Source of the DNA: Magnetococcales bacterium HCHbin5
GTDB taxonomy: Bacteria > Pseudomonadota > Magnetococcia > Magnetococcales > Magnetaquicoccaceae
Direction: 5' to 3'
Length of the DNA stretch: 36,635 nucleotides
NCBI GenBank assembly: GCA_002753505.1
Contig: PEAG01000035.1
Coordinates: 1 to 36,635, forward strand
The notes beneath the pieces are model-generated. The model was not told the DNA's origin. It searched no databases and worked only from the letters and a program-made list of their open reading frames with translations. Positions 1,542 through 23,535 of this stretch are shown one piece after another (position 1 is the stretch's first letter; every line of letters starts with the position of its first letter). The translations under genes were made by a program, and so were the position numbers.

Positions 1542-3242
1542 ATGACGCATGCCCGTCCCCGTCTGGGTGATCGGTTGGTGGAGCAGGGGGAGATCACCCC
1601 GCAGCAACTGCAGATTGCTCTGGCAACCCAGGCGCGTACGGGAGAGCCGTTGTCCCTTGTTTTGGTTCGTCTGGGCATGATGACGGAGTTGCAGTGGCTG
1701 GTCTTTTTTTCGCGTCTGTTGCAGCTGCCGCTGATTGATTTAAAGCAGTACCGCATTGATGGTGGCCTGGCCCGTTTGTTGCCGGAGGGGGTGGCTCGTC
1801 TGCATCAGGCCATTGTGTTGGCGCGGACGGCGCAGGGTCTGCTGGTGGGCATGGTGGACCCCACCGACATTTTTGCGTGTGATGAGCTGGCGCGCCGTTT
1901 GGGTGGGGTGCCTGATTTGGCGTTGGTGAGTGGTTCCCTGTTGTCGGCGGCGTTGGATGTGGTGTACCGGGGGGGAGAGCGGATCCAGGAGCAGGCGACT
2001 GCATTGGATGAGGAGGTGGGGCAGGCGGCTTTCAATCTGGAGGGGATGGCGCAGAGCGATCGGGCAGTGGATGCGCCGGTTGTGCATATTTTGCGTGCCC
2101 TGTTTGAGGATGCGGTGCGTTTGAACGCTTCGGACATCCACATTGAGCCGGATGCGGAGGTGTTGCGTCTGCGGCGGCGGGTGGATGGGTTGTTGCAGGA
2201 GCAGGTGGTGCAGGAGAAGCGTATCGCGCCTGCGCTGGTCTCCAAGCTCAAGCTGATGGCTGGTTTGGAGATCGCCGAGCGGCGTCTGCCGCAGGATGGG
2301 CGGTTTGACATGGAGGTCAAGGGGCGGGTCATCGATGTGCGGCTCTCCACTTTGCCGGTACAGGATGGGGAGTCGGTGGTGTTGCGGTTGTTGGACCGCA
2401 GCAAGGACCATACGGCGTTGCACACCATTCTGGAGCCGGAGCTGTTGCAGCGGTTCCAGAAAATTATTCAGCGGCTGCATGGTTTGGTGTTGGTGACCGG
2501 TCCCACGGGCAGTGGCAAGACGACAACCTTGTATGGGGCGTTGCATACGCTCAACACGCCGGACAAAAAAATAATCACCGTCGAAGATCCGGTGGAGTAT
2601 CGGTTGCCGCGCATCAGTCAGGTTCAAGTCAATCCCCGTATTGGTTTGACCTTTTCCGCTGTGTTGCGCACGGTGTTGCGGCAGGATCCGGACATTATTC
2701 TGGTCGGGGAGATGCGGGATCGGGAGACGGCGGAGATAGCCATTCGGGCGGCTTTGACGGGTCATCTGGTCTTTTCCACCCTGCATACCAACAGTGCGGT
2801 GGGGGCGGCGGTGCGGTTGTTGGAGATGGGGTTGGAGGGGTATGCGGTGGCGGCGGCGGTGCGATGTATTGTGGCGCAGCGGTTGGTGCGGCGGGTTTGT
2901 ACGGGATGTGCAGAGCCGTTCATTCCCACGGCGGCCGAGTTGATGTTGCTGCGTCATTGGGTTGGGGAGCGGGTGGTGCAGTGGGTACGGGGGCGGGGTT
3001 GTGCCGGTTGTCATTTCAGCGGCTTTGCCGGTCGGATGGCGGTGGTTGAGTTGTTGGAAATGCGGGGTGAAGTCGCAGATGCTTTGCGTCGGGGGGAGAT
3101 GGCGGGGTTGATCGGGGCGGCTGAGCGGCAGGAGGGTTATCGGCCGTTGTACCGTTCTGCGATCGAATATGCCGTGCAAGGGCGGACCACGTTGGAGGAG
3201 GTATTGCGGTTGGTTGAGGGGGAGGAGTCGGCTTACGGTTGA
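1542..3242 (+). CDS. GspE/PilB/MshE-family assembly ATPase (first of three)
   Basis: 566 aa, the usual length for a GspE-type hexameric ATPase that powers pilus or type II secretion fibre assembly from the cytoplasmic face of the inner membrane. The N terminus (residues about 1-150, RLGDRLVEQGEITPQQLQ) is a MshEN-type domain, which in MshE homologues can bind c-di-GMP. The catalytic part has Walker A GPTGSGKTTT near residue 320, an Asp box (VEDPVEYR), Walker B DPDIILVGEMRD, a His box with STLHTNSA, and a zinc tetracysteine pair CTGC / CAGC near the C terminus. All key residues are present, so it should be active. It is separated from the main operon by a repeat element and by the oppositely oriented mshM gene. 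Its codon usage is visibly richer in TTG/GTG than that of the second ATPase. Whether it works in extension, retraction or a parallel system cannot be told. Confidence 0.9.
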   Translation: MTHARPRLGDRLVEQGEITPQQLQIALATQARTGEPLSLVLVRLGMMTELQWLVFFSRLLQLPLIDLKQYRIDGGLARLLPEGVARLHQAIVLARTAQGLLVGMVDPTDIFACDELARRLGGVPDLALVSGSLLSAALDVVYRGGERIQEQATALDEEVGQAAFNLEGMAQSDRAVDAPVVHILRALFEDAVRLNASDIHIEPDAEVLRLRRRVDGLLQEQVVQEKRIAPALVSKLKLMAGLEIAERRLPQDGRFDMEVKGRVIDVRLSTLPVQDGESVVLRLLDRSKDHTALHTILEPELLQRFQKIIQRLHGLVLVTGPTGSGKTTTLYGALHTLNTPDKKIITVEDPVEYRLPRISQVQVNPRIGLTFSAVLRTVLRQDPDIILVGEMRDRETAEIAIRAALTGHLVFSTLHTNSAVGAAVRLLEMGLEGYAVAAAVRCIVAQRLVRRVCTGCAEPFIPTAAELMLLRHWVGERVVQWVRGRGCAGCHFSGFAGRMAVVELLEMRGEVADALRRGEMAGLIGAAERQEGYRPLYRSAIEYAVQGRTTLEEVLRLVEGEESAYG

Positions 3243-5508: not shown

Positions 5509-7374
5509 ATGTTGAAGTCATATAAATTTTTGTTAAAGCGTGACCGGATCCTCCCGGTCAGCCTGCTGCTGGTCAGCCTGCTGCTGGTCGGCTGCGCCGG
5601 GGCGGTCAAGCCACCCGCGCCCGCAGGGGGCGACATCAACAGCGTCAATGGTCGGTCATTGGAAGCTGTGCCGGGGGTGGGTAACGACCCGGCCAACCCG
5701 CCGGCTGCCACGCCTGCCCCTCCCCGTGCAGCGGATCCGGTTGCCCAAACCATTCCGGAAGCCCCCATCCCCCCCATTGCTGGCAGTGCACCCTTTTTGC
5801 TGCCGGAGGGGGAGGCCAGACCCCCCCTGGCCACCTATACGGTCTCCATGATCGATGCCCCCCTGCGGGAGGTGCTCTTTTCGTTGGCCAGGGATGCGGA
5901 GCTGAATGTGGATATCTATCCCGGCATCGACGATAAAATTACCATCAATGCCGTCAACCAGACCCTGCCCGCCATTCTGGACCGTATTGCCGATCAGAGC
6001 CGCTTGCAGTATCAGATCAAGGAGGGTGTCCTGCTGATCACCCCGGACAAACCGTTTCGGCGCAGCTATCCGTTAAACTATCTGCAAACCAAACGGGAAT
6101 CCAAATCCGGCATGTCCGTTTCCACCCAGATGAGCTCCAGCGAAGGCCGGAACGATGGCAGCAACGGCTCCAACGTTACCCTGACCGCTTCCGACTCCGC
6201 CGCCGACTTTTGGGAAAATCTGGTGGCCAATATCACCCACATGGTGGACCCGGCTGAAAACAGGGAGGGCAAACAGCCCGAGGCCAACGCCGCCAGGGCG
6301 GCCGCCCGTGGCGAGGAGAGTGCGGCCACCAAAGACCCGGCGGCCAATCCCTACGTGGTTTTGAACCGTGCCACCGGCGTCGTCAATGTGTTGGCAACCC
6401 ATCGTCAACACAAACAGGTGCAAGCCTTCATCGACCGGGTGATGCGCATCGCCATGCGCCAGGTCTTTATTGAGGCAACGGTGGTTTCGGTGGAACTCTC
6501 CGACGCCTATCAGGCGGGCGTGGATTGGAGCCTGTTGGCCTCCACAGTGGGTACCGCGGATCCCAACAACAGCCAGTCCATGATCAATCAGCGCATGACC
6601 GATGGGCCGCACCTCTCCTTGAAGCTGAACCGGACCAAGGTGCCTTTTCTGAGCGGTGTGTTGGGGGAGCATGACCTGACGGCCACGCTGCGCCTGCTCT
6701 CCCAGTTTGGCAATGCCAAGGTGGTTTCAACCCCCAAGGTGACGGTACTCAACAATCAGACGGCCGTGCTGCGGGTGACCACCAATCAGGTCTATTTCGA
6801 GATCAAAGTGACACCGGCGACGGTGCAAACCTCGACGGGGGGAGCGCAAACCCTCATTCCAGGCACCACCCAAACCCTGGTGCGCACCGCACCCGTTGGC
6901 TTTATCATGCAGGTCACGCCGCAAATCGATGCCAACAACATGATCACCATGAACATACGGCCCACCCTGCAACGCATCTCGCAATGGGTGGACAATCCAG
7001 ACCCCAATATGCGCATCAACCAGACCACCGGAGCCTCTTTCACCCCGCCCCAGATACCGGTGATCCAGGTACAGGAGATGGACTCGGTGCTGCGGGTGAG
7101 CAGCGGACAGGTGGCGGTCATGGGTGGCCTGATGCAGGACGAGTCCAAGAACGGCATGGATGGGATTCCCTATCTGTCCAAGGTGCCCGTTCTCGGTTCC
7201 CTGTTCAGTTATCGCAGCGAAGGCAATATCAAGAAAGAGCTGGTTATTTTCCTGCGGCCTGTCATCCTCAATGAGACCGACGAACTGCGCACAATAGGTA
7301 CCCGGGAGCGGCATCTGTTCAACGATCGCCCCTTTGACAACTATTGGGGCCAAACCGGAGGGGTGATTCCGTGA
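5509..7374 (+). CDS. mshL: MshL-type secretin lipoprotein
   Basis: 621 aa. An N-terminal lipoprotein signal (basic start, hydrophobic stretch, lipobox ending LLVGC) targets it to the outer membrane. A Pro-rich stretch follows, then a short N-domain (about 100-185, PLREVLFSLARDAELNVDI) typical of secretin STN/N0 folds, a poorly conserved linker with Gly/Ser, and secretin_N-like and secretin domains to the end. The C-terminal secretin signature is clear: VAVMGGLMQDE, then GIPYLSKVPVLGSLFSYRSE and the strand KKELVIFLRPVIL. It forms the multimeric outer-membrane channel for the fibre. The signal peptide is coded by a duplicated 15-bp unit (CAGCCTGCTGCTGGT). It is the first gene of the operon and its stop overlaps the start of the next gene by GTGA. 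Confidence 0.93.
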   Translation: MLKSYKFLLKRDRILPVSLLLVSLLLVGCAGAVKPPAPAGGDINSVNGRSLEAVPGVGNDPANPPAATPAPPRAADPVAQTIPEAPIPPIAGSAPFLLPEGEARPPLATYTVSMIDAPLREVLFSLARDAELNVDIYPGIDDKITINAVNQTLPAILDRIADQSRLQYQIKEGVLLITPDKPFRRSYPLNYLQTKRESKSGMSVSTQMSSSEGRNDGSNGSNVTLTASDSAADFWENLVANITHMVDPAENREGKQPEANAARAAARGEESAATKDPAANPYVVLNRATGVVNVLATHRQHKQVQAFIDRVMRIAMRQVFIEATVVSVELSDAYQAGVDWSLLASTVGTADPNNSQSMINQRMTDGPHLSLKLNRTKVPFLSGVLGEHDLTATLRLLSQFGNAKVVSTPKVTVLNNQTAVLRVTTNQVYFEIKVTPATVQTSTGGAQTLIPGTTQTLVRTAPVGFIMQVTPQIDANNMITMNIRPTLQRISQWVDNPDPNMRINQTTGASFTPPQIPVIQVQEMDSVLRVSSGQVAVMGGLMQDESKNGMDGIPYLSKVPVLGSLFSYRSEGNIKKELVIFLRPVILNETDELRTIGTRERHLFNDRPFDNYWGQTGGVIP

Positions 7375-9134
7375 GTCAACTGCTGTCGTCTTTGCAATCC
7401 GCTGAAAAACACCGCCACGAACCCCGTTCAAGTTCGGATGAGGCGTGGGATTTTGCTTCCGACAGCCAGGGCAGCCAACCGCAAAAGAGCCAACCATCGC
7501 CGGTTGCAGCCGCCACAAGCCGCGAGCCAACCGTCAACAGCCTGTTTCAGGAGGATGCAGAGGAGGGGGAGCAGCAGAGTGGCATCGGTTCCACCGTGCG
7601 ACCACTGCCAACCGCTCCGGCCCCCCCTTCCCCCGCGACCACTGCTGCCACCGAGGGGATCGCCCCGCTGAAAAATTTATCGGCCCAATTGACGGCCAAT
7701 TCGGATAGACCGATGGCATGGCTGCCGGGGGGGGATGCCCGGCAGATGCCCATTGCCGCCGCCATCCGGCCACCACCGGTGGACCGCACCGGATCGCCAG
7801 GTCGCCACCGCCAGCCGGAGGATGAGGAGCGGTTCCAGGAGACCATCCGGCTGTTGATGCCTGTCAAAGGCGATGCAAGAGCGGCACGCCACTATTCGCC
7901 CGCAGCGATGGGTGGCGGGGTGCTGTTGTTGGTTGGGGTGGCCGCGGCAGGTTATCTGCTGCACGACTACGTGGATACTGCAGAGGAGGGGGTCAATACA
8001 GGCATTCCGACCGAACCGAGAAGCCAGCCGCCATTATCCCCCCCCGCAGCGACGCTCCACCATAAGCCTGTCCAGCCGGCGGTCGAGCGGCCTGCCGCCG
8101 CTGCGCCGGCTCTCCAACCCGTCTCTCCCGCAACGACAGCAGCGACTGAAATCCTGGTAGCCGCGCTGCCTGCCGCCCCCCCGGCACCGCCGCCGGCGGT
8201 TGTGGTTGCTCCATCGGCTCCGGCAGTCGTTCCGGCGGCTCCCGTCGTCGCCGTTCCGCCGCCGACCGCCTTGCCGGTCGCTGCTCCAACCGTGGCAGCC
8301 CTGCTGCCATCCGCTTCAGCCATGGCCGCACCGGCCTCTCCGGCGGCGGCCCAACCGCCGCCATCGCAACCATCCAGCCCCCAACCGTTGCCGGGGGAAG
8401 CAGAAAAGCCGCCTGCGCCGCCGCCCGCTGCGCACCGACAGGAGCGACCAGCCGAGCCGGGGCTCGAGCCGGGGGAGGGGGGTGCTGCCAAGGCGGTTGC
8501 GTCACCCCCGCCTCCCCGCAGAGTTGCTCCCCAAAGTCCCGCCAAGGGTTTGCTGGACAAGGCGTACCGGGCGTTTCGTCTCGGGTCGTTGGAGGAGGCC
8601 GCCGGGCTGTTTCATAAAGCCCTGAAGGTTGACCCCCACAACCATCAGGCGATGATTGGCGTTGCCTCCGTGAACATGCGGCGTGCCAACATGGAGGAGG
8701 CGCGTTTCTGGTATCGGCGGGTGTTGCGGGAAGATCCCAACAACACGCTTGCCCTGACTGCACTGCTGGGGTTGGAGGGTACCGGGGATGTGGCAGAGGC
8801 GGAGAGTCGGCTGAAAAATCTGCTGCATGACCATCCGGAGGCCAGCCATCTCCATTTTGCCCTGGGCAATGTGTATGCGGCACAGGGGCGTTGGAGCTTG
8901 GCCTATGGGGCCTATGCGGATGCCCACCATCTCGGCCAGGAGCGCAATCCCGAGGTGCTGCTTAATCTGGCGGCCAGTCTGGACCATCTGCAACGGTGGT
9001 CCGAAGCCCTGCTCTATTACAACATGGCCCTGGCCATTGCGGAGACGGATCTGGAGCTGCATGTCCATTTTGATGTAGAGGCGGTACGCCAGCGCATCCG
9101 GTCATTGTATGCCATCAGCAGGCAACCCCAATGA
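7371..9134 (+). CDS. mshN: MshN-like membrane-anchored TPR protein
   Basis: 587 aa from the GTG at 7371, which overlaps the mshL stop and has GGAGGGG 6 nt upstream; an in-frame TTG at 7344 is less likely. The first 180 residues are polar and low complexity, followed by one transmembrane helix (GVLLLVGVAAAGYLLHDYV), a long Pro/Ala/Val-rich linker in the periplasm, and four to five TPRs from about residue 390 (LLDKAYRAFRLGSLEEAAGLFHKAL). This bitopic plus TPR layout between the secretin and the MshE gene is that of MshN in MSHA loci, where it is thought to connect inner and outer membrane parts. The Pro/Ala linker is unusually long. The stop overlaps the next start (ATGA). Confidence 0.8.
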   Translation: MSQLLSSLQSAEKHRHEPRSSSDEAWDFASDSQGSQPQKSQPSPVAAATSREPTVNSLFQEDAEEGEQQSGIGSTVRPLPTAPAPPSPATTAATEGIAPLKNLSAQLTANSDRPMAWLPGGDARQMPIAAAIRPPPVDRTGSPGRHRQPEDEERFQETIRLLMPVKGDARAARHYSPAAMGGGVLLLVGVAAAGYLLHDYVDTAEEGVNTGIPTEPRSQPPLSPPAATLHHKPVQPAVERPAAAAPALQPVSPATTAATEILVAALPAAPPAPPPAVVVAPSAPAVVPAAPVVAVPPPTALPVAAPTVAALLPSASAMAAPASPAAAQPPPSQPSSPQPLPGEAEKPPAPPPAAHRQERPAEPGLEPGEGGAAKAVASPPPPRRVAPQSPAKGLLDKAYRAFRLGSLEEAAGLFHKALKVDPHNHQAMIGVASVNMRRANMEEARFWYRRVLREDPNNTLALTALLGLEGTGDVAEAESRLKNLLHDHPEASHLHFALGNVYAAQGRWSLAYGAYADAHHLGQERNPEVLLNLAASLDHLQRWSEALLYYNMALAIAETDLELHVHFDVEAVRQRIRSLYAISRQPQ

Positions 9135-10849
9135 CAGAGCCGGTTGCCGACAAATCCCGTTCCCGGCTGGGAGAGCTGTTGCTGAAGGGGGGGATCATCA
9201 CCGAAGATTATCTCGATATTGCCCTGCTGGAGCAAAAAAAGACCCAGGAGCGTCTGGGCCACATCTTTGTCAAGTTGGGATTGGTGCCGGAAGCCACCAT
9301 GCGGGATCTGCTGGGGTCGGTGTTGCAGGAGGAGAGCATCGACCTGGATGCGGAGGGCATCAATCCTGCGGTTGTCCAGTTGGTGCCCAAAAAGCTGGTG
9401 GATCGCTACTGTTTTATCCCGGTGGCGTGGGATGAGGCCAACAACACCCTGACCGTGGCCATGCCCGACAGCTCGGATATCGGGGTGCTGGACAAGATTC
9501 GGGCCAAGCTGAAACCGGGTGTGCAGATCAAAACCCTGTTGGCCGGCGAGAGCGAAATTGGCCGCGCCATCGATAAATATTATGGTTTTGAACTTTCGCT
9601 GGATGGCATCATGCGGGAGTTGGAGACCGGAACGGTGGATCTGGAAAGCCTCTCCGCCGTGGGGTCCGGGGAGTTCAGCCACCCCATGGTGCGGCTGGTG
9701 GATGCCCTGTTGGCCGATGCCGTCCGCCAGGAGGCTTCGGACATCCATGTGGAACCGGAGGCCGGTTTTGTGCGGGTTCGTTACCGGATCGATGGCGTGC
9801 TGACCGAGATACGCAGCATGCACAAGGATTATCTTTCCGGTCTGGTGGTGCGCATCAAAATTTTGAGCGGGATGAATATTGCGGAGACCAGGGCACCCCA
9901 GGATGGCCGCTTTTCCATCTCCATCTCCCGCCGTGTCATCGATTTCCGGGTCTCCTCCATGCCCACCACCCACGGGGAAAACATGGTGTTGCGGGTATTG
10001 GACCGCAACAAGGGCTTTTTGCCGCTGGAACAACTGGGACTGGCGGATGAGACCCTGCTGACCTTGCTGCAGGTGTTGGCGCGACCGGAAGGGATCGTGC
10101 TGGTGACCGGCCCGACCGGGAGTGGCAAAACCACCACCCTCTACTCCATGATTAATTTTTTGAATACCAAAGATGTCAACATCATGACCCTGGAGGATCC
10201 GGTCGAGTATCCGATGGGGATTGTCCGTCAGACTCCGGTCAATCCGGCGGCCAATTTGGGCTTTTCGGAGGGGATTCGTTCCATCCTGCGGCAGGATCCG
10301 GACATTATTCTGGTGGGGGAGATCCGCGATCAGGATACGGCGCAGATGGCGTTGCGGGCGGCGATGACCGGGCACAAGGTGTTCAGCACCTTGCACACCA
10401 ACTCGGCCCTGGGGGCCTTTCCCCGTCTGCTGGATATTGGCATCAATGCGGAAATTCTGGCTGGCAATGTCAGCGGGGTCGTGGCGCAGCGACTGGTGCG
10501 AAAATTATGCAAAGTGTGCAGGCGTCCCGGTCGGCCCACCGCCCCGGAGCGGCGTGTGCTGGAGCTGGAACCGGAGACGGAGTGTACCATTTATCGGCCT
10601 GTCGGTTGTGAGGCCTGTGCCGGCGTCGGTTACAAGGGGCGCACGGCGGTGATGGAGGTGGTGCGCGTGGATGATGACTTTGATGATTTGATTGCCCATC
10701 ATGCCACCAAAGGGGAATTTATCAAATTGGCCGCCCAGAAAGGGTTCCGGACCCTGGCCCAGGATGGCAAACGCCTTGTGTTGCAAGGGATTGTCAGTGT
10801 GGATGAAATTTCGCGCGTGCTGGACTTGTCCGACCATGTTGTTGTATAG
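9131..10849 (+). CDS. mshE: MshE-type pilus assembly ATPase (second of three)
   Basis: 572 aa, full length for the family. An N-terminal MshEN domain (about residues 10-150, LGELLLKGGIITEDYLDIALLE) precedes the GspE core with Walker A GPTGSGKTTT near residue 326, Asp box LEDPVEYP, Walker B DPDIILVGEIRD, His box STLHTNSA and a CKVC / CEAC zinc motif. All catalytic residues are intact. Its position directly after mshN and before mshG matches MSHA gene order, so this is the best candidate for the principal extension ATPase. It is clearly the closest relative of the ATPase half of the next gene, down to the stretch around YYGFELSLDGIMRELETG, which points to a tandem duplication. Confidence 0.92.
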   Translation: MTEPVADKSRSRLGELLLKGGIITEDYLDIALLEQKKTQERLGHIFVKLGLVPEATMRDLLGSVLQEESIDLDAEGINPAVVQLVPKKLVDRYCFIPVAWDEANNTLTVAMPDSSDIGVLDKIRAKLKPGVQIKTLLAGESEIGRAIDKYYGFELSLDGIMRELETGTVDLESLSAVGSGEFSHPMVRLVDALLADAVRQEASDIHVEPEAGFVRVRYRIDGVLTEIRSMHKDYLSGLVVRIKILSGMNIAETRAPQDGRFSISISRRVIDFRVSSMPTTHGENMVLRVLDRNKGFLPLEQLGLADETLLTLLQVLARPEGIVLVTGPTGSGKTTTLYSMINFLNTKDVNIMTLEDPVEYPMGIVRQTPVNPAANLGFSEGIRSILRQDPDIILVGEIRDQDTAQMALRAAMTGHKVFSTLHTNSALGAFPRLLDIGINAEILAGNVSGVVAQRLVRKLCKVCRRPGRPTAPERRVLELEPETECTIYRPVGCEACAGVGYKGRTAVMEVVRVDDDFDDLIAHHATKGEFIKLAAQKGFRTLAQDGKRLVLQGIVSVDEISRVLDLSDHVVV

Positions 10850-10885
10850 TGAACCGTCCAGTCGGGCTGTTTTTTTGTTTTTTTG

Positions 10886-10936
10886 ACAGTGGCAGGGGTT
10901 TGGGAAGCGTGCCACTCCCCAGACCCCTGCCACTGT
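10886..10936. repeat. intergenic inverted repeat between mshE and the fusion gene
   Basis: Arms of about 20 nt (10886-10905 and 10917-10936) pair with one G-T wobble and one mismatch. A run of T residues (10869-10884) lies before the hairpin and none follows it, so it is not a normal rightward terminator. The sequence GGCAGGGGTTTGGG / CCCCAGACCCCTGCC is like the ends of the large repeat elements, where the equivalent is GCAGGGGTCCGGGG. I take it as a minimal member of that family. It interrupts an otherwise overlapping operon and could lower or separate expression of the downstream genes. Confidence 0.7.
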
Positions 10937-11023
10937 TCTGTTGTTCCCCAGGCCCCTGACAATCCTGCAAACCATGGCAAGTGCGGCCATCCCGGAAACG
11001 CCCTTTTGCTCGGATACAGCCAT

Positions 11024-13852
11024 ATGAACGCTGCTGTTTTGAATGGGATTCTTCTGTGCAGCCCATGGTTGCCCCTCCAATGGATGGCGCAGTTGCAACG
11101 CCATAGCCGACTGCTCATTCTGCGGGACAAGGAGGTGACCACCCATCTTTGGCTCGGCAATCGCTTTGGTGCCGGCAGCCATTTTCCCCAAACCCCGGAG
11201 GGACGCGAGGCGTTCGACCATTTTCTGGCAGGACAACCCACGGCTGGCGCGGTCTACCTGCTGGTGGACATCAGCGAAGAGGAGTTGCGGGCTGAAACCA
11301 TCCCCCGCCTGCGCTGGCACAACCGGGGCGGACTCATCGCAGGACGGCTGGGCCGCATGTTTCGCCAGACCCCCTACCGGCGGGCCGATTTTCAAGGCTA
11401 TCAGGCGGGCCATGTGGAACGGGTGCTGTTTTCCGCCCTGACCGCCCCTGCACTGGTCGAGCCGTGGCTGGATCTGCTGCGGCAACGACGCCTGCCTGTC
11501 GCCGGTCTCTGGTCGGTGGCCCTGTTGAGCCGTGCCCTGCTGCGCCATGCCAGCCGCCATTCGGCCAATGCGCTCTGGATCTGGCTGACCCAGGCCGGAC
11601 AGCGACAAACCTATTTTCACCAGGGACGCACCCTGGTCAGTCGGCTGACCTCCCAGCCGGGAGTCTCCCCGGAACAGACAGCCGCCGCCATCCATGCCGA
11701 AACCCACCGGACCCGACGCTACCTGAACATGCTGCGGCTGTTGCGGCCGGAGATTCCTCTGGATGTCTATGTTGTCTGCGGTCCCGCATTGGCGGATGCC
11801 CTGCGCCGCCACCCCACGCCGACCCCCGCCTGTCCGATGCAGCCGGTGTTGCTGGAGGGGCTGGCGGTCCGGTTGGGGCTGACCGCCGCCCAGCAGCGGT
11901 TTGGGGCCGATTTTGCCCTCCCCGCCGGCGAGAGCCCGGATAACGCGGAGCTGCTGATTGCCGAGCATCTGCTGTTGAGTCCGCCTGCCAACCACTATGC
12001 CCCTCCGGAGCTGTTGCAAGAGCAGTGGTTGCCCTGGCTGCGCAGAGGGTGGCAGCGGCTCTTGCAGCCGGCTCCTGCCGTCGCTCCCGCCGCTGCACCG
12101 GATCGGGAGAGGCTGCCAGCGGAACAGGAGGCGCAACCCCTGCCGATGGCACAACCGGTGCGGCGTATCGGGGAGCTGCTGCTGGAAAAAAAGGCGATCA
12201 GTCGCCACCAGTTGGAAATCGCCATCGCCGAGCAGAAAAAACAGGGGCAACCCCTCGGCAAAGTATTGACCCACCTGGGATTTGTCTCCGAAGAGGCGAT
12301 GCGGGATCTGTTGGGCGAGGCGTTGGAACAGGAGACCGTCGACCTCAGCCTGCGGACGCCCGATGCCGAGGCGATCCGCCACGTGCCGAAAGGGTTTGCC
12401 CGCCGTTACAGCCTGCTGCCCCTGGCGTGGCAGCCGGAGAGTGCCCAGTTGACCGTGGCGATGAGCAACACCTTCAACATGGCGGTGCTGGACAAACTCC
12501 AGAGTCTGTTGCCGAAAGGGGTCGTCTTGCGCCCCTTGATGGCGAGCGAAAGCGAACTGTTGGCCGCCATCGACCGCTTTTACGGCTTTGATCTGTCGGT
12601 GGATGGTATTCTGCGGGAGATTGAAACCGGCGAGGTGGAGCTGGAGGCGCAGCCACAGGCGAATGAACGGTTGGACCATCCGATGGTGCGATTGGTCGAT
12701 GCCCTGTTGACCGATGCGATTCGTCGTGAAGCCTCGGACATGCATATCAACCCGATGGCAAGTTTTACCCAGATTCGCTATCGGATCGACGGTGTACTTC
12801 AAGATGCGCGCATTTTAAACCGGAGCTTTTTTTCCGGCCTGTGCGTGCGGATCAAGGTGATGGGGGGGCTGGACATTGCCGAAACCCGCACCCCCCAGGA
12901 TGGCCATTTCAGCCGCGTGTTGGCCAATGTCCCGGTTGATTTTCGCCTGTCCACCCAGCCCACCGTCCATGGGGAAAATATTGTGCTGCGCATCCTGAAC
13001 CGCAGCAAAGGGTTGCTGGGCCTGCACGAGCTGGGCCTGACAGAGGAGAACAGCCGCCTGGTGCAACAGGTGATGGGGCGACCCCATGGCATCATTCTGG
13101 TCAGCGGTCCCACCGGCTGCGGCAAGACCACCACCCTGTACTCCATGCTGAGTACCCTGAATGCCAAAAAAAGCAATGTGATGACCCTGGAAGATCCGGT
13201 GGAATATCTGCTGGATGCCATTCTGCAGACCTCTGTCAACAGGACGGTCGAGCTGGATTTTTCCTCCGGTGTCCGCTCCATTCTGCGCCAGGATCCCGAT
13301 ATTATTCTGGTGGGGGAGATCCGTGACCTGGAGACGGCACAGATGGCCTTGCGGGCCGCCATGACCGGCCATCAGGTCTACAGCACCCTGCACGCCAACT
13401 CTGCCGTCGCCGCCATCTCCCGCCTGCTCAACATTGGCCTGCGGGCCGATATGCTGGCGGGCAACATGATCGGGGTGTTGGCGCAACGCCTGATCCGTAA
13501 ACTGTGTCTGCACTGTCGGCAGCCCCGGCCACCCACCGCCGAGGAGCAGGCATGGCTTGGTCCGGCGACGACCGGGCCGATCTATGGAGCGGTAGGCTGC
13601 CCGGAATGCCATGGCACCGGTTACAAGGGGCGTCTCTGCGTCATGGAGGGGGTGATGATCGATGATGAGTTTGATGATCTGATCGCCAGCAATGCCCCAC
13701 AAAGCGCGTATCGCCGCCTGGTCCAACAAAAAGGTCTACTGACCCTGCAGGATTTTGCCCGCCGCCGGGTACTGGATGGGACAACGGCCCTGGAAGAGGT
13801 GGCCAGGGTGTTTGGCCTGCTGCCCGTACAGGAGTCCCATCCCCATGCCTAA
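11024..13852 (+). CDS. fusion of a MshI/PilM/GspL-like cytoplasmic domain with a MshE-type ATPase (third ATPase)
   Basis: 942 aa from the ATG at 11024; an alternative ATG at 11084 would give 922 aa and neither has a strong ribosome binding site. An in-frame TTG at 10883 lies inside the hairpin and is rejected. Residues about 20-360 are paralogous to the N-terminal half of the protein encoded at 15061: shared landmarks include YLLVDISEEEL/YLLVDMIEEEL, GRLGRMFRQTPY/GRSSRMFRNTPF, FHQGRTLVSR/FLHNGRMLVSR and PLDVYVVC/PLDLFVLC. After a Pro/Ala linker comes a complete MshEN plus GspE ATPase: Walker A GPTGCGKTTT (near 695, Ser replaced by Cys), Asp box, Walker B DPDIILVGEIRD, STLHANSA and a CLHC / CPEC zinc motif. 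In type II secretion, GspL's actin-like domain binds GspE, so this fusion joins the two partners. I do not know of this architecture; it may be lineage specific. Confidence 0.88.
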   Translation: MNAAVLNGILLCSPWLPLQWMAQLQRHSRLLILRDKEVTTHLWLGNRFGAGSHFPQTPEGREAFDHFLAGQPTAGAVYLLVDISEEELRAETIPRLRWHNRGGLIAGRLGRMFRQTPYRRADFQGYQAGHVERVLFSALTAPALVEPWLDLLRQRRLPVAGLWSVALLSRALLRHASRHSANALWIWLTQAGQRQTYFHQGRTLVSRLTSQPGVSPEQTAAAIHAETHRTRRYLNMLRLLRPEIPLDVYVVCGPALADALRRHPTPTPACPMQPVLLEGLAVRLGLTAAQQRFGADFALPAGESPDNAELLIAEHLLLSPPANHYAPPELLQEQWLPWLRRGWQRLLQPAPAVAPAAAPDRERLPAEQEAQPLPMAQPVRRIGELLLEKKAISRHQLEIAIAEQKKQGQPLGKVLTHLGFVSEEAMRDLLGEALEQETVDLSLRTPDAEAIRHVPKGFARRYSLLPLAWQPESAQLTVAMSNTFNMAVLDKLQSLLPKGVVLRPLMASESELLAAIDRFYGFDLSVDGILREIETGEVELEAQPQANERLDHPMVRLVDALLTDAIRREASDMHINPMASFTQIRYRIDGVLQDARILNRSFFSGLCVRIKVMGGLDIAETRTPQDGHFSRVLANVPVDFRLSTQPTVHGENIVLRILNRSKGLLGLHELGLTEENSRLVQQVMGRPHGIILVSGPTGCGKTTTLYSMLSTLNAKKSNVMTLEDPVEYLLDAILQTSVNRTVELDFSSGVRSILRQDPDIILVGEIRDLETAQMALRAAMTGHQVYSTLHANSAVAAISRLLNIGLRADMLAGNMIGVLAQRLIRKLCLHCRQPRPPTAEEQAWLGPATTGPIYGAVGCPECHGTGYKGRLCVMEGVMIDDEFDDLIASNAPQSAYRRLVQQKGLLTLQDFARRRVLDGTTALEEVARVFGLLPVQESHPHA

Positions 13853-15047
13853 ATACCGCTACAAGGCGACTGACCAGGAGGGGACTATTCATCACGGTGT
13901 GGTGGAGGTGGCCAACGTGGATGCGTTGGAGCTGCGCATGGATCGCATGGGGTTGATGCTGATCAGCCACAAATGCCTGCGTTCCGCCCCGCTGCTGCTG
14001 TTCAACAGCAGCCCGGTCACTCGGCAGGATCTGATTGTTTTCTGCTTTGATATGGAACAGATGGCCACGGCTGGCGTCCCCATGCTGGAGGGGTTGAAGG
14101 GGCTGCGGGACGGCTTGCGCAAACCCCGCTTTCGCGCCATGGTCTCCACCCTGATCGAGGATATCGAGGCCGGCAAACAGCTGTCCGAGGCCATGCAGGC
14201 CCAACCCAGGGTTTTTGATGAGGTTTTCACCCAGTTGGTACTGATGGGGGAGCGGACCGGCTCCCTCAGTCAGGTATTCCAGGATATGACCGAAAATTTA
14301 AAATGGGAGGATGAGTTGATCTCCCAGGTCAAGAAGGTGATGATGTACCCCATGGTTGTGGCTGTGGTGGTGACGGCACTGATCTTTTTCCTGATGATCT
14401 ATCTGGTGCCCAAGTTGGTGGGATTTATTGCGGAGCTGGGGGGAGAGCTGCCGCTGCACACCCGGGCCCTGATTGCAACCTCCGGTTTTATCGCCGAGTA
14501 TTGGTATCTGCTGCTGCTGGGGCCGCTGCTTGTCTGGGCCGGTATCCGGTTGGGTTGCCTCTGGCATCTGGGGTTTCACCGCCTGGTGGACCGTTTAAAA
14601 TTGCGCATCTGGCTGTTTGGTCCCCTTGCCCATAAAATTATTCTGGTCCGTTTTACCAACGCCTTCGCCTTGATGTATAAATCCGGGGTCTCCGTCCTGG
14701 AATGTCTCAAAATTTCCGAAGGGCTGTCCAATAATCTGGAGCTGCGGGACTCCTTTCAGCGGGCGCGGCAGCTGGTCTCCGAGGGCAGGGAGCTTTCCAG
14801 CAGTTTTCAGGAGATCAACCTGTTTCCGCCCCTGCTGTTGCGCATCTTCAAGGTGGGGGAGACCACCGGCAATCTGGATACCTCGTTGCGTAGCATCAGC
14901 TATTTTTTTAACCGTGAAATCAAGGAGACAGTGGGCAGGTTGGAAATTTTGATCGGCCCGGTCATGACCATTTTTCTGGGGAGCATGATCGGCTGGGTGA
15001 TTCTTTCGGTTCTGGGACCGATCTACGACCTGATCAGTACCCTCTGA
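13845..15047 (+). CDS. mshG: MshG/PilC/GspF-type inner-membrane platform protein
   Basis: 400 aa from the ATG at 13845 (MPKYRYKATDQEG, a typical GspF start), with AGGAG 10 nt upstream and an 8-nt overlap with the previous gene. Two T2SSF domains are visible: the first around residues 60-190 (LIVFCFDMEQMATAGVPMLEGL) and the second around 265-390 (RFTNAFALMYKSGVSVLECL). Each is followed by hydrophobic helices, giving three membrane segments (about 165-190, 215-240, 370-395), as in the family. It is the polytopic platform on which the ATPase acts to add pilin subunits from the inner membrane. It sits directly after the fused ATPase and before the MshI-like gene, so it should form the core complex with them. 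Confidence 0.92.
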   Translation: MPKYRYKATDQEGTIHHGVVEVANVDALELRMDRMGLMLISHKCLRSAPLLLFNSSPVTRQDLIVFCFDMEQMATAGVPMLEGLKGLRDGLRKPRFRAMVSTLIEDIEAGKQLSEAMQAQPRVFDEVFTQLVLMGERTGSLSQVFQDMTENLKWEDELISQVKKVMMYPMVVAVVVTALIFFLMIYLVPKLVGFIAELGGELPLHTRALIATSGFIAEYWYLLLLGPLLVWAGIRLGCLWHLGFHRLVDRLKLRIWLFGPLAHKIILVRFTNAFALMYKSGVSVLECLKISEGLSNNLELRDSFQRARQLVSEGRELSSSFQEINLFPPLLLRIFKVGETTGNLDTSLRSISYFFNREIKETVGRLEILIGPVMTIFLGSMIGWVILSVLGPIYDLISTL

Positions 15048-15060
15048 CCGCAGCAGAGCC

Positions 15061-16668
15061 ATGGCCACCGACTCCTCCCTGTTTATTTTTCTTTCCGACT
15101 ATATCGTCACAATTTATGCCTGGCGGGATGGCCAGTTCAGCCAGCAGAACCGTTTTGAAAACTCTCCGGCGGGACAGGAGGCCTTCGGCCATCACTGGCA
15201 ACAGACCACCCCTTCGGAGCCGGTCTATCTGCTGGTTGACATGATCGAGGAGGAGCTTCACAACGAAATGGTGCCCCGCCTGTTCGGCGGCAATCGCCAA
15301 AAAATGTTGACAGGCCGCAGCAGTCGCATGTTTCGCAACACGCCGTTTTGTTACAACCACTTGTATGGCAGGGTGAGCGGCGAGGAGCAGAAAGAGCAGG
15401 TGTTGTTCATCGGCCTGACCGAACCGGAAAAGTTGCTGGCCTGGTTGACCATTCTGCACGGTTGTCAGGCCCGGCTGGCGGGTGTGGTTTCGGTCCCTGT
15501 TTTATGTCAGGAGCTGTTCAAAAAAATGGCCCCGGGGAACCAGGAGGCCCTTTTGGTCAGCCCCAATGCCGGGGGATTGCGACAAATTTTTTTGCACAAC
15601 GGCCGCATGCTGGTGAGCCGCTTTTCCGCCGTCCATCTGGAGGGGGAGCGGGCGGTGCGGGAGACGATCCGGCAGGAGGTGGTACGGATGCGCGGCTATC
15701 TGGAGTCGCTGCATCTGCTTTCACTCCACACCCCGCTGGACCTTTTTGTGCTTTGCCCCAAGGCGTTGCATCAGCTGCTGAGCAGCGAAACGGAGCAGGT
15801 CGCCCACCTCAACATTCATCCGGTGGATGCCGAGGGGTTGGCCCGTCGCCTGGGCTTCGGGACCAACCTGGGACAGAACGAGCAGCTGGAGCCGTTTTTT
15901 TGCGGGTTTTTGCTCAAACAACGCCAGCGTAACCACTATGCCAGAGCCGCCGATACCCGCATTTACCGCGCCCTCCGGTTGCGGGCCCGGTTGGGAACGG
16001 CCAGCCTGAGCCTGTTCCTGGTGGGGGTGCTGGTGGCGGGCGGGCTTTTTTGGGAAGGGTGGCGTATCCAGGATAGCCGACCGGAGTTGCTGCGCCAGGT
16101 GGCGCAGGCGCAGCAGGCCTGGCAAGAGGTGGCGGTGGCATCTGGCACAGGGGAGAAGGGGGGCACCCCGTCGGTGGGGGAGGGCAATGTGGTCGCGGCG
16201 GTACGGACCCTGGACGCCTTGCGGCAAAATGCCGCCACGCCCCAGCCCCTGTTGATTGCCATCAGTCAGGTGTTGAACTGGCATTCGGATATCTGGCTGG
16301 TGGGTTTGCAGTGGTTTGCCGGCCTGCCTGACCGGGAGGGTGAGTGGCTTCAGACAACGGGGCTTCCTGCGGCGGAGGCCAGGGCACTGTTGCGTCGTGA
16401 AGGTCAGAAAGCGGGATTGCACTATGTGCGTTTGCAGGGGCAGTTTTATCCCTTCAGCGGCCAGATGATGGTGGCCAACAGGCGCATCCAGGATTTTGCC
16501 GATGCTCTGCGCGGGTTGCCCGGCGTGGCGGATGTCGCGGTACTCTCCAGGCCGGAGGATCCGACCCAGACGGCGGTTCTGGACAGCCACAGCACACTGG
16601 CTTCCCCAACGGAGGCACCGTTTGCGTTGTGGATGGCGGTAGAGGCGGGGAGATACCGCCATGAGTGA
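15061..16668 (+). CDS. MshI/GspL-like protein: cytoplasmic actin-like domain, one TM, PilN-like periplasmic part
   Basis: 535 aa. Residues 1-300 form a cytoplasmic domain that is paralogous to the N-terminal domain of the fused ATPase encoded two genes upstream, and by position corresponds to MshI/PilM or the actin-like half of GspL. A single transmembrane helix lies at about 310-332 (LSLFLVGVLVAGGLFWEG). A coiled stretch rich in Gln/Ala follows and then a ferredoxin-like PilN/GspL-type periplasmic domain. A bitopic protein combining PilM and PilN roles is the GspL layout. It would recruit the ATPase and link it to the PilO-like protein encoded next, whose start overlaps its stop by 8 nt (16661-16668). 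The start at 15061 is chosen because it is the first Met and matches the paralogue's N terminus; its ribosome binding site is weak. Confidence 0.75.
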   Translation: MATDSSLFIFLSDYIVTIYAWRDGQFSQQNRFENSPAGQEAFGHHWQQTTPSEPVYLLVDMIEEELHNEMVPRLFGGNRQKMLTGRSSRMFRNTPFCYNHLYGRVSGEEQKEQVLFIGLTEPEKLLAWLTILHGCQARLAGVVSVPVLCQELFKKMAPGNQEALLVSPNAGGLRQIFLHNGRMLVSRFSAVHLEGERAVRETIRQEVVRMRGYLESLHLLSLHTPLDLFVLCPKALHQLLSSETEQVAHLNIHPVDAEGLARRLGFGTNLGQNEQLEPFFCGFLLKQRQRNHYARAADTRIYRALRLRARLGTASLSLFLVGVLVAGGLFWEGWRIQDSRPELLRQVAQAQQAWQEVAVASGTGEKGGTPSVGEGNVVAAVRTLDALRQNAATPQPLLIAISQVLNWHSDIWLVGLQWFAGLPDREGEWLQTTGLPAAEARALLRREGQKAGLHYVRLQGQFYPFSGQMMVANRRIQDFADALRGLPGVADVAVLSRPEDPTQTAVLDSHSTLASPTEAPFALWMAVEAGRYRHE

Positions 16669-17293
16669 GAACACGTGGCCACTGTTGCGCAAACAGGTGA
16701 TTATATTCTGCATTGTATGGGTGCAGACCGCCGGTTTTGTCGGAGCCGCTCTCTATTACCGGGACGAGATGGCGCAGCAGGTGGCGCAGATGCGGCAGCA
16801 GTTGCAGTCGTTGGAAAACAAAAAGCGGCTCCAGCAGGAGGAAAATCAGCGACAAAAGCAGTACCACACCCGGGTGCGTTTTTACCAGGATGCCGGTCTG
16901 TTTGAGCCGGAAGAGCCCCGCTTGCGGTGGGTGGAACAGATCATGATGGTGGAGAAGGCGTTAAAACTGCCGGTTCCGATACGGTTCAAGCTGGAGGTGC
17001 ATAAGCCGTTCATCCCGACTCTACCGGCCGTGCGCCCCCTGGAGGGTCTGTTCAGCAGCCGCATGGAGCTGATCCTCGGCTTGCTGCATGAGGGGGATCT
17101 GCTGGATTTTTTTCAGCGGCTTGCAAAGAGTAACTATGCGCTTTACGATATAAAAACCTGTACACTGGAGCGGCGGGACACCCCGGTCGGCGGCCACCAC
17201 AAGCCGGAGGTGGATCACCATTTGACGGCCACCTGTCAGCTGGAGTGGTATTGGTATGGCCCGACCAGCAGAGCGGGCAAGGGGGGGATGTGA
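16661..17293 (+). CDS. PilO/MshJ/GspM-like alignment-complex protein
   Basis: 210 aa. It has a short cytoplasmic N terminus, one transmembrane helix (IIFCIVWVQTAGFVGAALYY, about residues 14-33), a coiled coil of about 45 residues rich in Gln/Arg/Glu, and a small periplasmic domain. This is the layout of PilO, GspM and MshJ, which dimerise with the PilN/GspL-type partner. Sequence similarity is weak, so the call rests on topology plus its place directly after the MshI/PilN-like gene, with overlapping ends. An LLHEGDLLDFFQRL stretch near the C-terminal third resembles the helix of PilO-type ferredoxin folds. Confidence 0.65.
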   Translation: MSENTWPLLRKQVIIFCIVWVQTAGFVGAALYYRDEMAQQVAQMRQQLQSLENKKRLQQEENQRQKQYHTRVRFYQDAGLFEPEEPRLRWVEQIMMVEKALKLPVPIRFKLEVHKPFIPTLPAVRPLEGLFSSRMELILGLLHEGDLLDFFQRLAKSNYALYDIKTCTLERRDTPVGGHHKPEVDHHLTATCQLEWYWYGPTSRAGKGGM

Positions 17294-20631: not shown

Positions 20632-21223
20632 GCGGACGCGATGGCTCCCTTGCCCAGGGGGATTCACCCTGATTGAGATGGCACTGGTGTTGACGGTGTT
20701 CGGTCTGGTGCTGGTGGGTGGGTTCGAGGCTCTGCGGGTGCAGACCGCCAAGAGCAGAATGGAGCAGACCCGGAGCAGCATGGAGGAGATTGAGCAGGCC
20801 CTGCTGGGGTTTGTCACCGTCAACGGTCGTCTGCCCTGCGCGGCGGTCGATCCGCCGGACCCGGTCACCCCAGGGGAGGAGGATTGCGGCCTGGTGCCAT
20901 CGGCGGGGCTGTTGCCGTGGGCAACGTTGGGTCTCAAGCCGGTCGATGCCTGGGGCCACCGCTATGGCTATCGTGTCACCACCCAGTTTACGGTGGCGGC
21001 AACCTTTTCGGGGGCGGTGGGGGATCTGGTGGTTCGCAATGCGGATGATACCGGCGATATTGCGACCAATCTGGCGGTTCTGGTCCGCTCGCTCGGTCCC
21101 AATGGGGTTCTGGATGCGGCGATCAATCCCACAACCTTTCGTATCGGTTCCGACGATCTGTTGTGGTGGGTGCCTACCGACCTGTTGCAATTTCAACGGC
21201 TGCGTTCCTACGTCGGGCCATGA
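20624..21223 (+). CDS. prepilin-like protein, third member of the LPC...LPW group
   Basis: 199 aa from the ATG at 20624, which has AGGGGAG 6 nt upstream and overlaps the end of the Ser-tract gene by 8 nt; an ATG at 20618 and one at 20543 are also in frame. The leader of about 14 residues ends in GG before FTLIE, with the Glu at +5 and a hydrophobic helix (MALVLTVFGLVLVGG). The head domain has NGRLPCAAVDPPDP, a second Cys, GLLPWATLGL, DAWGHRYGYRV and GSDDLLWWVP. It belongs to the same paralogous group as the two preceding proteins but is shorter and lacks the SHGKNG segment. Confidence 0.8.
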   Translation: MAERTRWLPCPGGFTLIEMALVLTVFGLVLVGGFEALRVQTAKSRMEQTRSSMEEIEQALLGFVTVNGRLPCAAVDPPDPVTPGEEDCGLVPSAGLLPWATLGLKPVDAWGHRYGYRVTTQFTVAATFSGAVGDLVVRNADDTGDIATNLAVLVRSLGPNGVLDAAINPTTFRIGSDDLLWWVPTDLLQFQRLRSYVGP

Positions 21224-22017
21224 TCACCCCGTCCTCCTCACCGTTTCGGTGCGCCTGCCTGTTGACCATCGCCCGCTTGACCCTGCTGGAGACGTGGCGC
21301 AACCGTCTGCCCTGGGCGGTGCTTTGGCTGGTGGCACTGGGGTGGGGATTGGCCGCCTTTCTGAACGAGGCGGCGGTGACGGAGAGCGTGGAGATGCAGA
21401 GTGCCCTGCTGGGGGCACTCTTTCGGTTGGAGGCGGTCTTTCTGGTCAGCGTGACCGTCATTGCCGGTGCCGCCAGGGAGTTTCAGGACCGCCTGCTGGA
21501 GCTGCTGCTGGCGTTGCCGATGCCAAGGGTTGTCCATTTTCTGGGTCGGCTGGCGGGGTACAGCCTGGCGGCCGCGCTGGTGGCGACCGTTTTTGGGGCC
21601 GCCCTGCTCCCCTTTGTGCCCGTTGAGCAGGCGGTGTTGTGGACCCTTTCACTGCTGGGAGAGTTGATCCTGATGACGGCCCTGGGTCTGGTGCTGGTCT
21701 TGACCCTGAGCCAACTGCCGTTGGCATTGACGGTGGCCATGGCCTTTTATCTGCTGGCGCGTTCCATTGGGGCATTGATCTTGATGGCGGCGGGGCCACT
21801 GCCGGGGCATACCTCTCTGATTGGGCAATGGGAAGGGACTCTGTTGACCGTATTGTCCTGGCTGCTGCCCGATCTGGAACGGTTCACCCCCACCGCATGG
21901 CTGGTTTACCACACCGGTCATTGGCAGGAGCTGGGCTCCATTCTGCTGGAGACGGTCGTGTATCTTCTGTTTATCATGGGAGTGGGGCTGTTTGATCTCT
22001 ACCGCAAAAATTATTAG
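21220..22017 (+). CDS. ABC-2/heme-exporter-type ABC transporter permease
   Basis: 265 aa from the ATG at 21220 (ATGA overlap). About six membrane helices: around residues 28-47, 70-95, 105-130, 135-165, 170-195 and 235-258. The early motif FLVSVTVIAGAAREFQDRLLELLLALPMPR is typical of ABC-2 permeases, where a short cytoplasmic coupling helix precedes the 'LLLALP' stretch. Partner ATPase is encoded at 23669. An ABC transporter inside a pilus operon is uncommon but known from Myxococcus (PilGHI), where it is needed for pili. Substrate is unknown. Confidence 0.75.
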   Translation: MITPSSSPFRCACLLTIARLTLLETWRNRLPWAVLWLVALGWGLAAFLNEAAVTESVEMQSALLGALFRLEAVFLVSVTVIAGAAREFQDRLLELLLALPMPRVVHFLGRLAGYSLAAALVATVFGAALLPFVPVEQAVLWTLSLLGELILMTALGLVLVLTLSQLPLALTVAMAFYLLARSIGALILMAAGPLPGHTSLIGQWEGTLLTVLSWLLPDLERFTPTAWLVYHTGHWQELGSILLETVVYLLFIMGVGLFDLYRKNY

Positions 22018-22729
22018 CCAGCGGAAGCGGCAGTCTGCCCGCACGGTTCCGGGCTGGGTGGTGGTGTTGCTGCTGGTCGCCGGGGGGATGCAACTGGCGT
22101 GGGGCAGCAGTCGGCCGCCGCCGACGGCCAGGGCGACCGCCCTGGCTGCGCCCCCGCCGTCGGCTCTGCTGCGGTTGGCTGCTTTGGGTGATTCCATCGC
22201 CTTTGCCCGTGCCCTGATGCTGTGGGTGCAAAATTTTGATAACCAGCCGGGTTTGGCCATTCCGTTCCGAACCCTGGATTATGAGGCGTTGGCGCAATGG
22301 TTGCGGCAGGTGTTGGCCCTGGATCCCCGCAGTGAATATCCCCTCTATGCGGCGTTGAGTTTTTATGCCCCCATTGCCGACAAATCCCGTTCCTTGCGCA
22401 TGTTGGCCTTCATCCATGCCAGCTTTCAGGAAAATCCGGTCCTGCGCTGGCGATGGCTCGCCCTGGCGGCGGTGGAGGCCCGTCACCGCTGGGGGGAGAA
22501 GGAGTTGGCTCTCTCCTATCTGAATGAGATTCATGATCAGGCGGTACAGGGGCATCTGCCCCAGTGGGTGCGGGGCATGCAGCTGAGTCTCCTGCGGCAG
22601 GAGGAGGGGTTGCAGAGTGCGCGCCAGATTGTCGGCGGCCTGTTGCACAACGGGGTGATCACCGACCCGGGGGAGTTGAAATATTTGCAAGCCTGGCTGG
22701 AACGTTGGGAGGCCGAGGCGGCGAAATAG
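21992..22729 (+). CDS. conserved protein with N-terminal membrane anchor, function unknown
   Basis: 245 aa from a TTG at 21992 that overlaps the permease end by 26 nt and has GGAGTGGGG nearby. One hydrophobic segment near residues 21-40 (GWVVVLLLVAGGMQLAWG) acts as signal or anchor. The rest is helical and TPR-like, with RLAALGDSIAFARALMLWVQN, then a repeated helix pattern around DPRSEYPLYAALSFYAPIADKS and a C-terminal EELKY-type helix. I recognise a resemblance to a conserved alphaproteobacterial family with 'ALGD ... KIQN ... DY' motifs of unknown role, from memory only. Its place between the permease gene and the promoter of the next pilin gene suggests a role in the transporter or fibre. 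Confidence 0.6.
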   Translation: MISTAKIISQRKRQSARTVPGWVVVLLLVAGGMQLAWGSSRPPPTARATALAAPPPSALLRLAALGDSIAFARALMLWVQNFDNQPGLAIPFRTLDYEALAQWLRQVLALDPRSEYPLYAALSFYAPIADKSRSLRMLAFIHASFQENPVLRWRWLALAAVEARHRWGEKELALSYLNEIHDQAVQGHLPQWVRGMQLSLLRQEEGLQSARQIVGGLLHNGVITDPGELKYLQAWLERWEAEAAK

Positions 22730-22731
22730 AG

Positions 22732-22761
22732 TTGAAAAAGGGCGATGTTCTGCGGTATAGT
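22732..22761 (+). promoter_or_regulatory. sigma-70-like promoter for the pilin gene at 22836
   Basis: TTGAAA at 22732-22737 and TATAGT at 22756-22761 with an 18-nt spacer. It lies just after the stop of the preceding gene and about 70 nt before the pilin start, which has GGGAG at 22825-22829. A separate promoter fits a subunit needed in larger amounts than the rest of the operon. Confidence 0.55.
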
Positions 22762-22835
22762 GCAGGCGTTGGAGATTGGGTCCGACCGTGCATCATTATT
22801 TAACGGATGTTTTTTGGGAAAATTGGGAGTTGTCC

Positions 22836-23513
22836 ATGTACAAGCCGATGCGCCGTGCAGCACAAGCCGGTTTTACCTTGATTGAAATTTCCATCGTACT
22901 GATCATTATTGGCCTGCTTCTGGGCGGGGTTTTGAAGGGTCAGACCATGGTCAAAAATTCCAAAATCAAGCGTATCGCCGCCGATGGACAGGCTTTTGTC
23001 TCTGCCACCAACGCCTATCTGGACTCCTACTGGGCACTGCCTGGTGACGATGCCAGCACGGTGGCCCGTTGGGGGGTGGCGGCTGGTGATGGGGGTGGCA
23101 CCATCGGGCCGGGTGCAGCCAGCAATACCGCCATCTTCTATCCGGCCTTGGCCAATCTGGCCACGGCCGAAAACTCTCTGGCTGTTGGTCATCTCCGCTG
23201 TTCGGCACTGCTGAAAGGCAATTGCGCCATTCCCGCGGCCATCGCGGATCTGCCCAAAAATGCGGTCGGCGGTTATATCGGCATCGATGATGGCAATTCG
23301 CCCGAGGACACCATGTTGGGATTTGCCACCAAGGTGATCTGTCAGAACAATATCGAGTCGGACTATGCCATGGTCTATGACACCCAGTTTGATGACGGGT
23401 TGCCTGGCACGGGGGATATCCGGGGTTCGACAGCGACCACCTATGCCACGGCGGATGCCACGGCGGCCGCCTATACGGCCGGGAACACCTACTACGTTTG
23501 CGCAAGCTTCTAG
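22836..23513 (+). CDS. type IV prepilin, probable major subunit (MshA/PilA-like)
   Basis: 225 aa from the ATG at 22836, with GGGAG 6 nt upstream. Classic short leader of 12 residues ending in AQAG, then FTLIEISIVLIIIGLLLGG with Glu at +5: a textbook class III prepilin. The segment VLKGQTMVKNSKIKRI after the helix, then YLDSYWALPGDD, is typical of a pilin/pseudopilin group often annotated as prepilin-type N-terminal methylation protein. Two Cys pairs are possible (CSALLKGNC; Cys in VICQN and YYVCASF near the C terminus). It differs from the four upstream prepilins, which share other head motifs. Its own promoter suggests it is the main fibre subunit. Confidence 0.85.
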   Translation: MYKPMRRAAQAGFTLIEISIVLIIIGLLLGGVLKGQTMVKNSKIKRIAADGQAFVSATNAYLDSYWALPGDDASTVARWGVAAGDGGGTIGPGAASNTAIFYPALANLATAENSLAVGHLRCSALLKGNCAIPAAIADLPKNAVGGYIGIDDGNSPEDTMLGFATKVICQNNIESDYAMVYDTQFDDGLPGTGDIRGSTATTYATADATAAAYTAGNTYYVCASF

Positions 23514-23535
23514 TGGCCCGTTTGGCCAAGTATCG

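Follow-up and report, generated by a model that had tools for sequence, protein, structure and literature searches.

In the type II secretion system (T2SS) the N1 domain of the ATPase GspE is the part that binds GspL (4PHT, 2BH1; reviewed in PMC11656802). In type IVa pili PilM is a cytosolic actin-like stator, and the motor PilB docks in PilM and interfaces with PilC (PMC11656802). Whether the motor stays on its PilM or GspL stator or lets go during the cycle, and how many stator subunits serve each hexamer, are matters of debate in type IV pilus and T2SS research; PMC9765406 and PMC11656802 take up the further question whether force is transmitted by the N1 domain via the stator. Flexibility of the N1 domain has made the stator-motor contact difficult to visualise.

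Magnetococcales are an order that includes magnetotactic cocci. The window, i.e. the whole stretch of DNA analysed here (36,635 nt; contig PEAG01000035.1 of Magnetococcales bacterium HCHbin5), carries a gene in which an MshI-type domain and an MshE-type ATPase form one chain. The GspL-GspE pair of T2SS (EpsL-EpsE, 4PHT) likewise combines an actin-like domain, the cytoplasmic part of GspL, with an N1-bearing ATPase, GspE, and models predict that the two halves of the fusion resemble both partners of this one solved complex. However, the T2SS partners are two chains and GspL is membrane-anchored, whereas the fusion is a single chain without the GspL transmembrane (TM) and periplasmic part and has no detectable T2SSL sequence match. 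The PilM-PilB pair is alike in its cytosolic actin-like stator, PilM proteins being the top structural matches of the fusion’s N-terminal domain (N-domain), yet PilM and PilB are separate, PilM has DxG-type nucleotide motifs that are absent in the fusion, and no PilM_2 sequence match is seen. The MSHA pilus of the Vibrio cholerae type shares the neighbourhood (secretin, TPR protein, MshE, MshG, MshI, MshJ), the MshEN c-di-GMP motif and the platform partner. Classic MSHA loci keep MshI and MshE separate, whereas the fusion joins them, adding to both in type-A loci and replacing both in some lineage-B genomes and in one deep-branching genome, G023.

The family of every part is known; the single-chain architecture and the replacement of both proteins in some genomes appear new, in that no earlier description was found in the literature searched. 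No earlier report of the fusion was found in open-access literature, most subscription papers being outside the reach of the search. A full-text search of open-access literature for the fused pair returned only a V. cholerae MshA/c-di-GMP paper, and literature on PilM-PilB and GspE-GspL gene fusion, type IV filament fusions and Magnetococcales pili (open-access, mainly titles and abstracts) did not describe the architecture.

The fusion gene and its neighbours

The fusion ORF, on the plus strand, encodes 942 aa and contains neither a stop nor a frameshift. The open frame spans 10883-13852, with a TTG at 10883 as a possible upstream start; the ATG at 11024 is the start used by homologues and gives the 942 aa product. 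Its surroundings in the window are as follows.

5509-7374, plus strand: MshL-like secretin (TIGR02519, E 7.8e-70, 235 bits, just under the cut-off of 250)
7344-9134, plus strand: TPR protein in the MshN position (profile search)
9131-10849, plus strand: separate MshE-type ATPase (Pfam, identity to the fusion, tree)
11024-13852, plus strand: fusion gene, MshI-type actin-like domain, linker and MshE-type ATPase (942 aa)
13845-15047, plus strand: MshG, a GspF/PilC-type platform protein (PF00482), its start overlapping the fusion stop by 8 nt
15061-16668, plus strand: separate MshI-like protein with actin-like domain, TM at residues 311-329 and periplasmic part (BLASTP, hydropathy)
16661-17293, plus strand: small protein in the MshJ position (gene order; conserved after MshI in type-A and classic loci)

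The fusion lies directly upstream of mshG in the window, and mshG follows it on the same strand in all 30 loci with both genes on the contig. Measured from the longest open frames, the spacing is -97 to +71 nt in 28 of these 30 loci and 222 and 294 nt in the other two.

Further elements were observed in the region. The frame at 1542-3242 (plus strand) encodes another GspE/PilB-type ATPase that also has an MshEN domain, bringing the number of MshEN ATPases within 12.5 kb to three. The gap from mshE to the fusion contains, at 10886-10936, an inverted repeat of 22 nt whose arms are 91% complementary and 7 nt apart; it might form an RNA hairpin or act as an attenuator. Among the pilin genes sits an ABC transporter (ATPase and permease-like protein), at 21163-24394 in the window and at 10748-14091 in the annotated type-B locus L046; such genes are thus found among pilins in type-A as well as type-B loci. 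An ABC transporter among pilin genes recalls PilGHI of Myxococcus.

Domains, predicted fold and motifs

The fusion consists of an actin-like MshI domain, a 56-residue linker and a complete MshE-type ATPase, with the following features.

11105-11992, plus strand: actin-like PilM/GspL/MshI-type domain, residues 28-323 (BLASTP, hhalign, AF2 model, Foldseek)
11993-12160, plus strand: fast-evolving linker, residues 324-379, replacing the MshI TM and periplasmic part (sequence comparison)
12020-12061, plus strand: possible amphipathic cationic helix EQWLPWLRRGWQRL in the linker, residues 333-346 (hydrophobic moment; hypothesis only)
12164-12319, plus strand: MshEN tandem c-di-GMP motif, residues 381-432 (NF053729)
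12332-12595, plus strand: MshEN domain, Pfam stretch, residues 437-524 (PF05157, E 6.9e-16)
12674-13807, plus strand: GspE/PilB-type N2D and catalytic domain, residues 551-928 (PF00437, T2SSE, E 8.3e-122)
13106-13129, plus strand: Walker A GPTGCGKT, residues 695-702 (motif reading)

By sequence, the N-domain is an MshI domain. Residues 28-326 align with residues 6-294 of the MshI-like protein at 15061-16668 at 34% identity (BLASTP, E 5e-41), and hhalign against an MshI-like profile covers 305 columns with a probability of 100% (E 1.1e-78). No credible sequence match to the N-domain exists in Pfam, NCBIfam or PDB. Neither PilM_2 nor T2SSL is matched in Pfam by any of 27 members of the N-domain family, and hhalign against PilM and GspL alignments gives a probability of only 0.1-0.2% (small profiles). 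The link to PilM and GspL rests on fold alone, without sequence-level support, and is a prediction of the model: the AlphaFold2 model of the N-domain, built from 15 sequences (pLDDT 83.9, pTM 0.80), retrieves PilM of Pseudomonas and Thermus first in Foldseek (E 2.6e-10 to 3.6e-10, probability 1.00), with FtsA and the cytoplasmic domain of GspL behind them (4pht_Y; TM-score normalised to target length 0.53). The PilM motif GLDIG has no counterpart in the fusion consensus; the N-domain therefore probably does not bind nucleotide, an inference from sequence alone.

The ATPase half (residues 374-932) is 53% identical to the separate MshE-like protein at 9131-10849 over 563 columns. Both Pfam matches listed above exceed their cut-offs. 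The Walker A, Asp box Glu, Walker B, catalytic Glu, His box, N2D arginines and CxxC zinc motif are all intact. Two tandem RLGxx... motifs define the MshEN c-di-GMP motif (PMC5013675), and NF053729, the NCBIfam model of that motif, scores 59.8 bits on the fusion, above its cut-off of 38. The Arg of motif I is retained. Because the first Arg of motif II is Pro, c-di-GMP binding by the fusion MshEN may be weakened, a possibility read from the residues only, without binding data.

The full-length model is weak (pLDDT 66.8, pTM 0.40) and too poor to show docking of the N-domain on MshEN; the structure it matches best is nonetheless the GspE chain of 4PHT.

No fusion has a TM-like stretch before MshEN (mean hydropathy at most 1.55), and the linker is 29-69 residues long across fusions. 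In stand-alone MshI-like proteins, by contrast, a TM stretch is present near residue 310 (one, L079, is incomplete). The fusion has neither the MshI transmembrane helix nor the periplasmic part, and for want of a TM helix it cannot anchor itself as GspL does.

As a separate observation, the linker helix of this fusion has a hydrophobic moment exceeding shuffled sequences (p=0.012), and the AF2 model shows a helix at residues 335-347. A universal amphipathic anchor helix was considered and rejected: a cationic amphipathic helix reaches p<0.05 in only 10 of 14 type-B and 5 of 20 type-A linkers, this fusion included. Where present, the helix could touch the membrane.

The original prediction of an N-terminal MshI-like domain and a complete MshEN-GspE ATPase in one chain is borne out by ORF, BLASTP and Pfam, as is its statement that separate MshE and MshI copies exist in the same operon. 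Its size for the paralogous part, about 340 residues, is corrected to about 300 aligned residues. It proposed comparing residues 1-370 with PilM, GspL and MshI profiles; MshI matched, PilM_2 and T2SSL did not. The expected structural match to an actin-like fold is found between the predicted N-domain model and both PilM and GspL. In the proposed comparison with the GspL-GspE complex, the halves match the 4PHT chains, without docking being shown by the full-length model.

Distribution and origin of the fusion

The N-domain is found in 31 of 48 genomes of the class (Magnetococcia), and both halves occur in one ORF in 26 of the 48, for a total of 34 ORFs. Four of these ORFs reach a contig end, yet each still includes the junction and some or all of the ATPase. 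One further genome (G012), additional to the 26, has a contig-truncated copy (L075) grouping with the fusions. All named records with the fusion are Magnetococcales MAGs. Recurrence in more than half of the order’s sequenced genomes is shown; that the fusion is a real machine part is inferred from it.

Outside the class no fusion was found in about 350 sampled Pseudomonadota, where MshI-like frames are only stand-alone. No T2SSL-containing frame longer than 731 aa occurs in 398 sampled genomes of the phylum, the fusion was not found in IMG/VR contigs or in plasmids, and a genome-contig scan with a single narrow motif gave matches only in Magnetococcales.

Pairwise dN/dS values are lowest in the ATPase (0.05-0.18), followed by the N-domain (0.11-0.32), and in the linker they span 0.16-0.75. 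The first two ranges place the N-domain and ATPase under constraint, and the pattern is that of two constrained domains joined by a fast-evolving tether.

An assembly or sequencing chimera of two neighbouring genes is an obvious alternative. In its favour, the source assembly is split into 200 contigs, and each half has a separate gene of its kind close by. Against it, the same junction is present in the 34 ORFs, from many assemblies and with N-domains diverged to about 30-60% identity, and purifying selection acts on both sides of the junction. An assembly join is rejected because this one-frame architecture is conserved across the 26 Magnetococcales genomes, and a chimera is all but ruled out.

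In trees the fusion ATPase halves group as a single clade next to MshE (support 93/81), with one extra row, E_L075, which is the fusion truncated by a contig end; fusions and MshE together are separated from three outgroup ATPases with support of 100/99. N-domain and ATPase trees show the same split into lineages A and B. N-domain trees set the G023 fusion apart, and the AU test does not reject a single clade (p=0.13); the fusion may have arisen twice, and a single origin remains unsettled for G023.

The idea that a duplicated MshE captured the MshI cytoplasmic domain is supported by the ATPase clade beside MshE and by the sequence and predicted fold of the N-domain. A stop or frameshift between the halves, named beforehand as refuting, is absent from the ORF and the one-frame architecture recurs; the same fusion, to be sought in other genomes, was found in the class and not outside it in the Pseudomonadota sampled. 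Beyond what had been predicted, the fusion is widespread in the order, replaces both proteins in some genomes, and has a second, type-B, counterpart in the source genome itself (contig C96).

Two locus types and the proposed role

Fusion loci can be grouped generally by lineage. Type A, the type of the window, includes the fusion, MshG, MshI, an MshJ-type protein and pilins; the secretin, TPR protein and separate MshE adjoin the locus or lie elsewhere. The type-A fusion often occupies the usual mshE slot before mshG, the other MshE being elsewhere. A separate MshE and MshI are retained in nearly all type-A genomes; most carry a pair of MshE-class ATPases, and each genome checked carries a single type-A MshG. 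One genome rated 97% complete (G018; contig C87, L065) has fusion A and MshI, and no separate MshE was found in it.

Type B includes the fusion and MshG, to which the annotated locus L046 adds pilin-like genes and the ABC transporter; MshI is absent from L046. In two lineage-B genomes, G024 (99% complete) and G002 (96%), the fusion is the only MshE-class and the only MshI-like gene. The same holds for the deep-branching G023 (93%), which keeps the arginines changed in type B. In type B the catalytic domain has L[LM]RQDPD changed to L[LM]WQDPD (R to W) and GEIRD to GE[IV]HD (R to H), both in 13 of 13 sequences covering the region (L044, L046, L050, L054, L055, L057-L059, L061, L063, L069, L070 and L161), with Walker A and the catalytic Glu kept. 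LRAAMTGH is also changed to LQAAMTGH in type B.

What is shown is a conserved protein in which an MshI-family actin-like domain, lacking the TM and periplasmic parts, is followed by a complete extension ATPase of the MshE type; its gene is linked to mshG. The fusion is likely a covalent, pre-docked pairing of stator and motor within a type IV filament assembly machine of the MSHA type, this function being inferred without experiment. Recurrence in the class, constraint on both domains, the predicted fold matches, the kept catalytic motifs, the linkage to mshG and the genomes with the fusion alone speak for this reading; the missing sequence link to PilM_2 and T2SSL, the weak full-length model, the absent TM anchor and the possibility of two fusion events weigh against it. 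The N-domain would dock on MshEN of its own or a neighbouring subunit, as GspL does on the GspE N-terminal domain, and tethering would make the stator-motor contact permanent or nearly so. The motor ring would carry its own stator collar and sit on MshG without recruiting a separate MshI. In lineage A the fusion and separate MshE may work on a single MshG, in mixed hexamers or by turns, with membrane-anchored MshI linking the ring to periplasmic parts; in lineage B and G023 the fusion would stand in for both MshE and MshI. Two motors and one platform in type A suggest such sharing, the data leaving mixed rings or turns undecided. The original prediction, itself hedged, had offered locking of the motor to the platform or mixed ATPase hexamers; the presence of a single MshG alongside two MshE-class ATPases is consistent with a shared machine, by inference only.

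Alternatively, the fusion could be a dedicated second motor (for another speed, another pilin or retraction) alternating with MshE on one MshG, like PilT and PilB. The single MshG for two ATPases and the frequent position in the mshE slot speak for this. However, the extension-type MshEN domain and zinc motif are kept, the protein groups with MshE, and PilT-sized ATPase frames are present elsewhere in the source genome, so this reading is thought improbable. Nor is it expected that the N-domain is a targeting or decoy module rather than a stator, recruiting a second, specialised MshE to the machine and displacing MshI from the ring, by which the fusion would tune or block assembly by ordinary MshE. 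The separate MshE and MshI of nearly all type-A genomes, which leave the fusion unneeded to supply either there, and the missing TM and periplasmic parts would fit a decoy, but G024, G002 and G023 hold no other MshE or MshI to compete with, and type-A catalytic motifs are intact.

Within the favoured stator-motor reading, a bolder version is possible as a whole, though less likely than not. Lineage B would be a reduced filament machine, with stator and motor in one chain, no MshI or MshJ/K-type protein in the locus, the hold on the membrane by MshG and the amphipathic linker helix replacing a transmembrane stator, and a catalytic ring altered by the R to W and R to H changes; the lineage-A fusion would be the same unit in mixed rings with ordinary MshE.

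That motor and stator can share one polypeptide, in some genomes with no other copy of either, suggests that a permanently attached motor can still function; where it is the sole copy, in lineage B, the fusion would fix the stator-to-motor ratio at 1:1. It offers a single-chain construct for structure work on the stator-motor contact, and may serve as a natural test of how pilus motors work.
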